A stretch of 64,000 bases of DNA from NCBI RefSeq assembly GCF_026616195.1, contig NZ_JANHDH010000001.1, positions 1,860,001 to 1,924,000 of the forward strand, in the 5' to 3' direction. The DNA is from Haloarchaeobius amylolyticus (GTDB taxonomy: Archaea; Halobacteriota; Halobacteria; Halobacteriales; Natrialbaceae). Positions 26,875 to 30,830 of this stretch are shown here, one piece after another; positions within the stretch are counted from its first letter, which is position 1; every line of letters starts with the position of its first letter. The notes under the pieces were generated by a model. The model saw only the letters and a list, made by a program, of their open reading frames with translations, made no database searches and was not told where the DNA came from. The position numbers and the translations under genes were made by a program.

Positions 26875-27123
26875 ATGTTGACGATACTCTCCGAACTGGT
26901 CCCGGAACTGCTGGCGATCCTCGCCTACGCCGCGGTGGCTGTCGCGCTCTCGGCGCTCGGTGCGAGCACCGAACTGGCCGGCTGGCACAACCTCGTCACC
27001 GAGGGCTTCAGCATCCTCACCGTCTGGTACGCCCTCATCGGCGGCCTGCTGCTCTACAGCGCGGTCGTCCTCGTCGGCTACCAGCGCCTCCTCCCCCGGG
27101 TCCGGGTTCTCCTCGCGGAGTGA
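26875..27123 (+). CDS. Small two-helix membrane protein
   Basis: 82 residues with two hydrophobic segments (about 8-28 and 45-68) and a short basic end (QRLLPRVRVLL). No family is recognised. ATG 26875 is preceded by CGTTCCCAGCATCC with no strong ribosome site. It precedes the microprotein pair by 63 bases. Confidence 0.7.
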   Translation: MLTILSELVPELLAILAYAAVAVALSALGASTELAGWHNLVTEGFSILTVWYALIGGLLLYSAVVLVGYQRLLPRVRVLLAE

Positions 27124-27186
27124 CCCGTCGAAAGCGGTCACCCGGCCAACACCTTCATATCCCCCTGCTCGAATCCTTCGGTCGAC

Positions 27187-27285
27187 ATGAGTGATGGGGA
27201 CGCCGGGAGCATCTTCGCCCGCGACGACCACGAGCCGACACACGAGTTCCCGCAGAGCATCTTCGACGGGGGCGGCGACGACTGA
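27187..27285 (+). CDS. Microprotein 1 of a tandem pair (GSIF/PQSIF motif)
   Basis: 32 residues (MSDGDAGSIF...). It carries GSIF at residues 7-10, then EPTHE at 16-20 and PQSIF at 22-26, and ends in an acidic tail. The same arrangement (GSIF, five residues, EPTHE, one residue, PQSIF) recurs at the start of the next small gene, so it is likely to be translated. A TATA-like TTCATAT (27154-27160) is about 30 bases upstream. No family recognised. Confidence 0.65.
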   Translation: MSDGDAGSIFARDDHEPTHEFPQSIFDGGGDD

Positions 27286-27351
27286 TATCAACGGGTGCCT
27301 GAATACTCAGGTACCCAACTGATGTAACTCACGTATAATTTCTAGATAGAC

Positions 27352-27504
27352 ATGTCGGGGGACAAGGGGTCGATCTTCACCGAGGAAGCGGTGGAACCGA
27401 CACACGAGCATCCACAGAGCATCTTCCAGCGACCGTTCGACGACCACGTGATGACGGTCTTCGAGGACGACGGCTCCTTCTACCGGCTGCGGGTCAGGGA
27501 CTGA
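27352..27504 (+). CDS. Microprotein 2 of a tandem pair (GSIF/PQSIF motif)
   Basis: 50 residues. Residues 6-25 repeat the motif of microprotein 1 (GSIF, then EPTHE at 15-19 and PQSIF at 21-25) and the C-terminal half (FDDHVMTVFEDDGSFYRLRVRD) has alternating hydrophobics consistent with one beta hairpin. An AT-rich GTATAATT lies at 27333-27340, close to the start. The matching motif and spacing in two neighbouring frames is the main evidence that it is real. A conserved peptide-binding or adaptor role is only a guess. Confidence 0.65.
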   Translation: MSGDKGSIFTEEAVEPTHEHPQSIFQRPFDDHVMTVFEDDGSFYRLRVRD

Positions 27505-27552: not shown

Positions 27553-27603
27553 ATGTCCGTTCCGGGAGCGTCTGTCACATCCGCACCTGCAGGACCGATT
27601 CCC

Positions 27604-27610
27604 ATTTAAT
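27604..27610 (+). promoter_or_regulatory. TATA element of ileS
   Basis: ATTTAAT centred 26 bases before ATG 27633, as for a leaderless transcript. Confidence 0.65.
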
Positions 27611-27612
27611 GT

Positions 27613-27629
27613 CGGAGTGAGTCACTCCG
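27613..27629 (+). promoter_or_regulatory. Perfect palindrome between TATA and start of ileS
   Basis: CGGAGTGA and TCACTCCG pair perfectly around a single central base. The site fills the space between the TATA element and the start codon, so a bound repressor would block initiation. It could also fold at the very 5' end of a short-leader mRNA and hide the start codon. Confidence 0.55.
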
Positions 27630-27632
27630 CAC

Positions 27633-30600
27633 ATGGAACGATTCGGGGAGGTATCCGACCAGTACGAGCCCCACGAGGTCGAAGACCGCGTCTTCGACTA
27701 CTGGGACGAGGTGGATGCCTACGAGCAGACGAAGACACACCGAGAGGACTGCGAACCGTTCTTCTTCGTGGACGGCCCGCCGTACACCTCCGGCGCCGCC
27801 CACATGGGGACGACCTGGAACAAGGCCCTCAAGGACGCCTTCATCCGCTTCTACCGGATGCAGGGCTACGACGTGACCGACCGGCCGGGCTACGACATGC
27901 ACGGCCTCCCCATCGAGACGAAGGTCGAGGAGGAACTCGGTTTCGAGAACAAGAAGGACATCGAGGAGTACGGCGAGGAGAAGTTCATCGAGGCCTGCAA
28001 GGAGTTCGCCAACCGCAACCTCGACGCCATGGACGAGGACTTCCAGTCCTTCGGCGTCTGGATGGACTGGGACGACCCCTACAAGACGGTCTCCCCGGAG
28101 TACATGGAGGCCGCCTGGTGGGGCTTCCAGCAGGCCCACGAGCGCGGGCTGGTCGAGCAGGGCAAGCGCTCCATCAACCAGTGCCCGCGGTGTGAGACCG
28201 CCATCGCCAACAACGAGGTCGAGCGCCACGACGTGCACAAGCCCGCTATCTACGTCAAGTTCCCCTTGACGGGCCGCGAGGGGAACCTCGTCATCTGGAC
28301 GACCACCCCGTGGACCATCCCCGCGAACACGTTCGTCGCGGTGGAGGAGGACGCGACCTACGTCGGCGTGCGCGCCGAGAAGGACGGCGAGACGGACCTG
28401 CTCTACGTCTCCGAGCCGCAGGTCGAGGAGGTCCTGAAGGCGGCCCGGTACGAGGACTACGAGGTCGTCGAGGAGGTCACCGGCGAGGAGATGGTCGGCT
28501 GGGAGTACGAGCACCCGCTGGCCGAGGAGGTGCCCGACCACCCGCAGGGCGAGGGCGCCGGCCAGGTGTACACCGCCGAGTACCCCGACGCCAACGACCG
28601 GTCCGGGATGGTCCACTCCGCACCCGGGCACGGTGAGGAGGACTTCGAGCGCGGCTCGGAACTCGGGCTCGAGATCTTCTGTCCCGTCCAGGGCGACGGC
28701 ACCTACACCGAGCAGGGCGGCAAGTACGCCGGCCAGTTCGTTCGCGACGCCAACGAGAACGTCATCGCCGACCTCGACGAGAAGGGCCTGCTGCTGGCCC
28801 ACGACGAGAACTACCTCGTCGAGGGCGAGGGGCAGTGCTGGCGGTGTGACACGGACATCGTCCGCCTCGTCACCGACCAGTGGTTCATCACCGTCTCCGA
28901 CATCAAGGAGGACCTGCTCGAGAACGTCGAGGACAGCACGTGGTGGCCCCAGTCCGCCCGCGACGAGCGCTTCCGCAACTTCGTCGAGGACTCGCCGGAC
29001 TGGAACGTCTCCCGGCAGCGCTACTGGGGCATCCCCATCCCCATCTGGACGCCCGAGGACTGGAGTGGCGATATGAGCGAGGTCGTGGTCGTCGGCACCC
29101 GCGAGGAACTCGCCGAGCGCGTCGACCAGGACGTCGACCCCGACGAGGTCGACCTCCACAAGCCGACGGTCGACGACCTGACCATCACCGAGGACGGGAC
29201 CACCTACACCCGCGTCCCCGACGTGTTCGACGTGTGGCTCGACTCCTCGGTCGCCTCGTGGGGTACCCTCGACTACCCGAGCGACGAGAGCCAGTTCGAC
29301 GAGCTCTGGCCCGCCGACCTCATCATCGAGGCCCACGACCAGACGCGTGGCTGGTTCTGGTCCCAGCTCGGGATGGGTACCGCCGCGCTCGACGAGGTCC
29401 CTTACGACGAGGTCCTCATGCACGGCTGGGCCCTCGCCGAGGACGGCCGGAAGATGTCGAAGTCCATCGGGAACATCGTCGAGCCCAGCGAGGCCATCGA
29501 GCGCCACGGCGCCGACGCGATGCGCCTGTTCCTGCTCTCGCGCAACCCGCAGGAGGAGGACATGCGCTTCTCGTGGGACGAGATGGAGAACATGCAGCGC
29601 GACCTCAACATCCTCTGGAACGTGTTCCGGTTCCCGCTCCCGTACATGCGGATGGACGGGTTCGTCCCGGAGAACGTCACGCCCGAGGAGGCCGACACCG
29701 AACTCGTCGACGAGTGGGTGCTCGCCCGTCTCCAGAGCGTCAAGGCCGAGATGGCCGAGCAGTGGGAGGAGCACCGCCGCCCCGACCGCGCGCTCGACAC
29801 GCTGCTCGATTTCGTCGTCGAGGACGTCTCGCGGTTCTACATCCAGGTCGTCCGCGAGCGCATGTGGGAGGAGGAGGACAACCCCTCGAAGGAGGCCGCC
29901 TACGCCACCTTCTACCAAGTGCTCACGGACGTCGTCAAGCTACTGGCGCCGTACGCCCCCTTCGTCACCGACGAGATCTACAACACCCTCACCGGCGACG
30001 AGGGTTACGACACGGTCCACATGTGCGACTTCCCCGAGACCGACGACTTCTGGGCCGACGCACAGCTCGAGACCGACGTCCAGCTCCTGCGTGCCGTCGA
30101 GGAGGCCGGGTCGAACGCCCGCCAGCAGGCCGACCGCAAGCTCCGCTGGCCCGTCTCGCGTGTCGTGGTCGCCCCGAACGACGACCGCGCCGCCGAGGCC
30201 GTCGAGCGCCACCGCGACCTGCTCGCCGACCGGCTGAACGCCAGGGAGGTCGAACTCGTCTCGCCCGACCAGCAGTGGGGCGAACTCCAGTACGCGGCCC
30301 GCGCCGACATGGGCAAGCTCGGCCCCGCCTTCGGCCAGCGCGCCCCCGAGGTCATGAACGCGCTCAACGAGGCCAGCCTCGACAGCGCCGACCTCGACGA
30401 CCTGCGCGAGGCCGTCGGCGAGGACGACCTCACCGAGGAGATGGTCGAGTTCGTCACCCGGACGCCCGAGGGCGTCACCGGCAGTAGCTTCGCCGTGAAG
30501 GGCGACGAGAAGGGCGTCGTCTACGTCGACGCCACGCTGACCGAGGACATCGAGAGCGAGGGCTACGCCCGCGAGGTCATCCGCCGCGTCCAGGAGATGC

Positions 30601-30830
30601 GCAAGGACCTGGACCTCGACATCGAGGCGCGCATCCGCCTCGAACTCGACGTGGCCGACGAGCGCGTCGCCGACCTGGTGAACCGCCACGAGGACCTCAT
30701 CGCCGAGGAGGTCCGCGCCGCCGAGTTCGGCAGCGTCGACGACGGCCACCGCAAGGAGTGGGAGGTCGAGGGCGTCACGATGACGCTCGCGGTCGAGCCG
30801 CTCGCGGAAGCCGAGGCGTCGGACGACTGA
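27633..30830 (+). CDS. ileS: Isoleucyl-tRNA synthetase
   Basis: 1065 residues, class I synthetase that charges tRNA-Ile with editing of valine. The HIGH motif is HMGT at 57-60 in PYTSGAAHMGTTWNKALKD; KMSKS is present at 607-611 in EDGRKMSKSIGN. The editing domain (about 190-400) with WTTTPWTIP is present, and the C-terminal anticodon-binding region is long, as in archaeal and eukaryotic-type IleRS. The length is typical. An exact palindrome directly before the start suggests control of expression. Confidence 0.98.
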   Translation: MERFGEVSDQYEPHEVEDRVFDYWDEVDAYEQTKTHREDCEPFFFVDGPPYTSGAAHMGTTWNKALKDAFIRFYRMQGYDVTDRPGYDMHGLPIETKVEEELGFENKKDIEEYGEEKFIEACKEFANRNLDAMDEDFQSFGVWMDWDDPYKTVSPEYMEAAWWGFQQAHERGLVEQGKRSINQCPRCETAIANNEVERHDVHKPAIYVKFPLTGREGNLVIWTTTPWTIPANTFVAVEEDATYVGVRAEKDGETDLLYVSEPQVEEVLKAARYEDYEVVEEVTGEEMVGWEYEHPLAEEVPDHPQGEGAGQVYTAEYPDANDRSGMVHSAPGHGEEDFERGSELGLEIFCPVQGDGTYTEQGGKYAGQFVRDANENVIADLDEKGLLLAHDENYLVEGEGQCWRCDTDIVRLVTDQWFITVSDIKEDLLENVEDSTWWPQSARDERFRNFVEDSPDWNVSRQRYWGIPIPIWTPEDWSGDMSEVVVVGTREELAERVDQDVDPDEVDLHKPTVDDLTITEDGTTYTRVPDVFDVWLDSSVASWGTLDYPSDESQFDELWPADLIIEAHDQTRGWFWSQLGMGTAALDEVPYDEVLMHGWALAEDGRKMSKSIGNIVEPSEAIERHGADAMRLFLLSRNPQEEDMRFSWDEMENMQRDLNILWNVFRFPLPYMRMDGFVPENVTPEEADTELVDEWVLARLQSVKAEMAEQWEEHRRPDRALDTLLDFVVEDVSRFYIQVVRERMWEEEDNPSKEAAYATFYQVLTDVVKLLAPYAPFVTDEIYNTLTGDEGYDTVHMCDFPETDDFWADAQLETDVQLLRAVEEAGSNARQQADRKLRWPVSRVVVAPNDDRAAEAVERHRDLLADRLNAREVELVSPDQQWGELQYAARADMGKLGPAFGQRAPEVMNALNEASLDSADLDDLREAVGEDDLTEEMVEFVTRTPEGVTGSSFAVKGDEKGVVYVDATLTEDIESEGYAREVIRRVQEMRKDLDLDIEARIRLELDVADERVADLVNRHEDLIAEEVRAAEFGSVDDGHRKEWEVEGVTMTLAVEPLAEAEASDD

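Follow-up and report, generated by a model that had tools for sequence, protein, structure and literature searches.

Two adjacent short genes upstream of the isoleucyl-tRNA synthetase gene of Haloarchaeobius amylolyticus, here called P1 and P2, are paralogous members of a narrow, previously undescribed family of haloarchaeal microproteins. The encoded peptide is under purifying selection, the family is syntenic with ileS throughout the genus, and a longer form is present in the sister genus. Positions below refer to the 64,000-nt stretch of DNA that was analysed as a whole (the window).

Two microprotein genes share a paired SIF motif

P1 (27187..27285, + strand) encodes a 32-aa acidic microprotein, MSDGDAGSIFARDDHEPTHEFPQSIFDGGGDD, that consists of essentially nothing but the motif GSIF-x5-EPTHE-x-PQSIF. 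P2 (27352..27504, + strand) encodes a 50-aa microprotein, MSGDKGSIFTEEAVEPTHEHPQSIFQRPFDDHVMTVFEDDGSFYRLRVRD, in which the same motif is followed by a C-terminal part, HVMTVFEDDGSFYRLRVRD, that has no counterpart in P1 and is predicted to form a beta-hairpin (residues 33–37 and 43–47). The original observation, that genes of 32 and 50 residues carry this motif with the same spacing, proved exact to the residue. Local alignment of P1 with P2 scored 88, against 51 for the best of 20,000 shuffles, and a search for S[IV]F-x6-22-S[IV]F in all six frames of the 64-kb window matched P1 and P2 only. Neither peptide contains cysteine, each has two isolated Ile codons, both within the motif, and all family members tested are acidic, with net charges of -6 to -17. 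A P2-like continuation beyond the P1 stop, found by tblastn with one TGA, was judged to be chance because it is absent in G328, the one congener that also has both genes.

Several observations bear on selection at the peptide level. Over the 20 codons of the motif, P1 and P2 are identical at 42/60 nucleotides, and the first conserved Ser is encoded by AGC in P1 and by TCG in P2; this combination of partial DNA identity and a codon switch points to selection on the peptide and not to a recent DNA copy. In comparison with G328, dN/dS (NG86) was 0.41 for P1 and 0.22 for P2, and among the single-copy genes of other congeners it ranged from 0.07 to 0.44, below 1 in every pair; the genes are short and each value is therefore rough, but all lie in the same direction. 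Third codon positions account for 13 of the 22 substitutions in P2. Across eight Haloarchaeobius sequences the M, G, SIF, HE, P and second SIF are invariant and the spacers are variable. When relatives were checked for absence of the motif or for frameshifts, the motif was kept and the reading frames were intact in all six Haloarchaeobius species. The earlier proposal of selection on the peptide is thus supported. P1 and P2 are almost certainly genuine genes.

Gene order and predicted control regions

On the + strand, P1 and P2 lie between a gene for an 82-aa hydrophobic protein (26875..27123) and ileS (27633..30830). The 82-aa product is probably a two-helix membrane protein; it has no Pfam or NCBIfam match, its gene has a dN/dS of 0.25, and it precedes ileS in many genera of the taxonomic family, with or without SIF genes. 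The 1065-aa reading frame downstream, which we take to be isoleucyl-tRNA synthetase from recognising its sequence and not from a family scan, has a homologue in 121 of 125 genomes of the family.

A candidate TATA box for P1, TTCATAT (27154..27160, + strand), proposed from its resemblance to the consensus, lies about 30 nt before the ATG and is kept in G328. Leaderless transcripts make up 72% of the protein-coding ones in Haloferax volcanii (PMC4983044), and a TATA box at this distance from the start codon is thus not unusual. The gap between P1 and P2 contains an inverted repeat, CCTGAATACTCAGG (also written CCTGAATAYTCAGG; 27298..27311), and the same place in G328 holds a perfect 16-bp palindrome; when the G328 gap was shuffled 20,000 times, 16 shuffles held one as long. 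Judged from its sequence, this repeat may be an operator of P2. It is followed by a conserved TGATGTAAYTCAC, which is kept in G328 in a gap that has otherwise diverged. An AT-rich element before P2, TATAATTT (27334..27341, + strand), lies too close to the P2 ATG to be the TATA box of a leaderless P2 transcript.

Alignment of ileS upstream regions revealed a predicted promoter, CTGCAGGACCGATT...TTTAAT followed by CGGAGTGAGTCACTCCG (27587..27629, + strand). Its TATA box lies some 26 nt upstream of the ileS start codon, and the promoter is conserved whether or not a species has SIF genes. Written as CTGCAGGACCGATT-N4-TTTAAT-N2-CGGAG, it shows striking conservation ahead of ileS over many genera of the family, and much of a second family also has the ACCGATT...CCTTTA core. 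Just before the ATG, both this genome and G328 have an inverted repeat, CGGAGTGA-G-TCACTCCG, after the promoter.

The family is confined to two genera in the genomes searched

A SIF gene lies between the small membrane protein gene and ileS in all six Haloarchaeobius species examined; this genome and G328 have a pair of such genes, and G204, G214, G215 and G326 have a single 48-aa gene each. The tandem arrangement noted originally therefore holds for two of the six species, the other four having one gene. G328 has an orthologue of P1 and an orthologue of P2, the latter 82% identical, and the single-copy homologues are 40–43% identical to P2. Because the 48-aa gene (MREGGQESIFATD...THEYPESIFREPEREMVVIDGGRSYRL...) aligns over the whole length of P2, P1 is best read as a duplicate without the C-terminal part; loss of a gene in the other lineage is a possible alternative.

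The distance from P2 or its single-copy homologue to ileS is 64–128 nt within the genus. In the sister genus, a search by position before ileS, and not by sequence match, located in G265 an 83-aa ORF, MGSSIF...HSVFRRP...TMTVFSDGTRYEF, 136 nt before ileS and without the small membrane protein as neighbour. A second species, G238, has a 52%-identical relative 1.7 kb before ileS. Both are longer than the Haloarchaeobius proteins and share with P2 the C-terminal hairpin, in addition to carrying SIF and SVF.

Profile searches of 125 genomes of the family and 391 of the class Halobacteria yielded no convincing member beyond these two genera, a positional screen of the region preceding ileS revealed no SIF gene in 58 genomes from two other families, and searches of viral contigs, plasmids and PDB sequences found no relatives. 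In a scan of genome contigs, P2 alone gave no match and an alignment query recovered two Haloarchaeobius genomes. P1 and P2 had no match in Pfam, NCBIfam or PHROGs at the library cut-offs, in agreement with the initial impression that they belong to no known family; the 48-aa and 83-aa homologues had none in Pfam or PHROGs, and Rfam gave no match. Class-wide P2 matches at E 0.03–1 were treated as chance, since most lie inside larger frames and were not recovered by the profile. Weak matches of the motif profile (L200–L203 and L211) and of the second protein described below (L187–L191) were rejected after reading as out-of-frame or unrelated, several of them being UspA-like.

Predicted structure, and a similar tail on another protein

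An AlphaFold2 monomer model of P2, built on eight closely related sequences, places the hairpin in a block with a pLDDT of 82 (pTM 0.28) and assigns no secondary structure to residues 1–32 (block pLDDT 56–70 over residues 1–30). The model suggests that the N-terminal tail of P2 is flexible, a pLDDT of about 70 over the motif being no proof of disorder.

Profile search through the genus also brought up a protein of 116–118 aa (about 117 aa) at another locus of the four single-copy species (L170–L173, from G214, G204, G326 and G215, around 1490–1850). Its gene is flanked by those for a 160-aa hypothetical protein and a 5-formyltetrahydrofolate cyclo-ligase-like protein, near a TrmB-like regulator; at E 0.01, neither this genome nor G328 gave a match to the protein. 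After an N-terminal tail, QESIFTTEPVEPxRRDSVF, come a variable linker and then a domain predicted to be helical, for which there was no family match and no Foldseek match at E <1, and beyond the tail the protein is otherwise unrelated to P1 and P2. In pairwise comparison of the tail with P2, 132 of 20,000 shuffles scored equally well, and the likeness emerged from a search of many genomes; it may thus be convergence, and a common origin of the two tails is suggestive but not established. The tail may serve as a docking module that more than one protein uses.

A possible two-site peptide ligand and its alternatives

We tentatively propose, at slightly less than an even chance, that members of the P1/P2 family are acidic microproteins acting as two-site peptide ligands of some partner. 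The N-terminal region would be a flexible acidic tail whose two hydrophobic anchor triplets, SIF and SIF or SVF, either occupy two similar sites on a single partner, for example on the two halves of a dimer, or link two separate partners. The beta-hairpin of P2 would probably provide stability or a second contact, and P1, as a shortened duplicate with the docking part only, could compete with or modulate P2. Bivalent ligands have two anchors in a disordered region; here the anchors are invariant, and the model has no secondary structure over residues 1–32 (block pLDDT 56–70 over residues 1–30). The anchors are 13, 11 or about 19 residues apart in different carriers; this counts against a strict two-site dock, as such a dock need not tolerate the variation. 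That the two SIF copies form a repeated interaction unit, as first suggested, remains plausible in view of the invariant SIF triplets, HE and P, the variable spacers and the similar tail on a second protein in four species. In an extended form of the proposal, which we regard as doubtful, several unrelated proteins (the microproteins encoded beside ileS and the helical protein of ~117 aa) would all bind one common cellular hub through the paired SIF...S[IV]F tail, a two-site recognition signal specific to the lineage, and P1 would be a natural competitor.

The chief rival to a peptide ligand is a self-assembling mini-protein, in which P1 and P2 are the subunits of a small homo-oligomer whose core is built from the SIF triplets and the hairpin. 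The triplets are hydrophobic, have invariant H, E and P beside them and could be core residues, and the two genes stand side by side; however, the monomer model has no secondary structure over residues 1–32, the hairpin is wholly absent from P1, and anchor spacing ranges from 11 to about 19 residues, so we consider self-assembly unlikely, if still a serious contender. Adjacency on the same strand in 6/6 Haloarchaeobius species could instead make the peptides accessory subunits of the small membrane protein (26875–27123), encoded in one operon for a small membrane complex. This is improbable, since many other genera of the family have the membrane protein before ileS but no SIF genes, the G265 SIF gene sits beside ileS without such a neighbour, and P1 has a candidate promoter of its own.

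Two further readings concern the nature of the reading frames themselves. An ileS leader peptide, with ribosomes stalling where the SIF motifs encode Ile, would fit the position directly before an isoleucyl-tRNA synthetase gene and the presence in each peptide of two Ile codons, both in the motif. Yet a separate promoter is predicted for ileS, some 26 nt from the ATG and conserved even where SIF genes are lacking, and the main ileS transcript would then not carry P2; the distance to ileS varies from 64–128 nt in the genus to 1.7 kb in G238, and it is the whole peptide that is conserved and not the Ile codons, with no run of cognate codons. A leader peptide is accordingly very improbable. Small size, the lack of a family match and the lack of homologues beyond two genera would suit chance ORFs, or a DNA or RNA element that resembles a repeated peptide, but we give this hardly any credence: substitutions are mostly third-position (13/22 in P2), dN/dS is <1 in every pair, the conserved Ser switches between AGC and TCG, frames are intact in congeners, and Rfam gave no match.

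Discussion

The family is a well-supported addition to the haloarchaeal microproteins, a large group that is still poorly understood. Because the anchors are short and invariant, the proposed docking can be tested cleanly by mutation, and the existence of one-gene and two-gene species provides a helpful natural contrast.

Haloarchaeal mu-proteins are proteins of <70 aa, about 400 of them in H. volcanii, with function mostly unassigned (PMC11241148). P1 (32 aa) and P2 (50 aa) fall within this size range and have selected frames; those mu-proteins studied so far are CPXCG zinc fingers, whereas P1 and P2, having no cysteine, lack the two CPXCG motifs and carry instead a paired SIF motif unmatched in the curated families searched. 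Like the leader peptides of aminoacyl-tRNA synthetases, they are short ORFs directly upstream of a synthetase gene and contain the cognate amino acid; they differ in the independent promoter predicted for ileS, the variable distance, the conservation of the whole peptide and the lack of an Ile-codon run. With bivalent short-linear-motif ligands, such as adaptor or decoy peptides, they share two short hydrophobic anchors, variable acidic spacers, a probably flexible terminus and possible reuse on a second protein, the anchors of P1 and P2 being putative and read from sequence only. P1 and P2 represent a new family of a known kind of protein, the lineage-restricted haloarchaeal microprotein. Only if the tail turns out to be a shared docking signal would they amount to more, and they would then offer a rare traceable short-linear-motif system in archaea.
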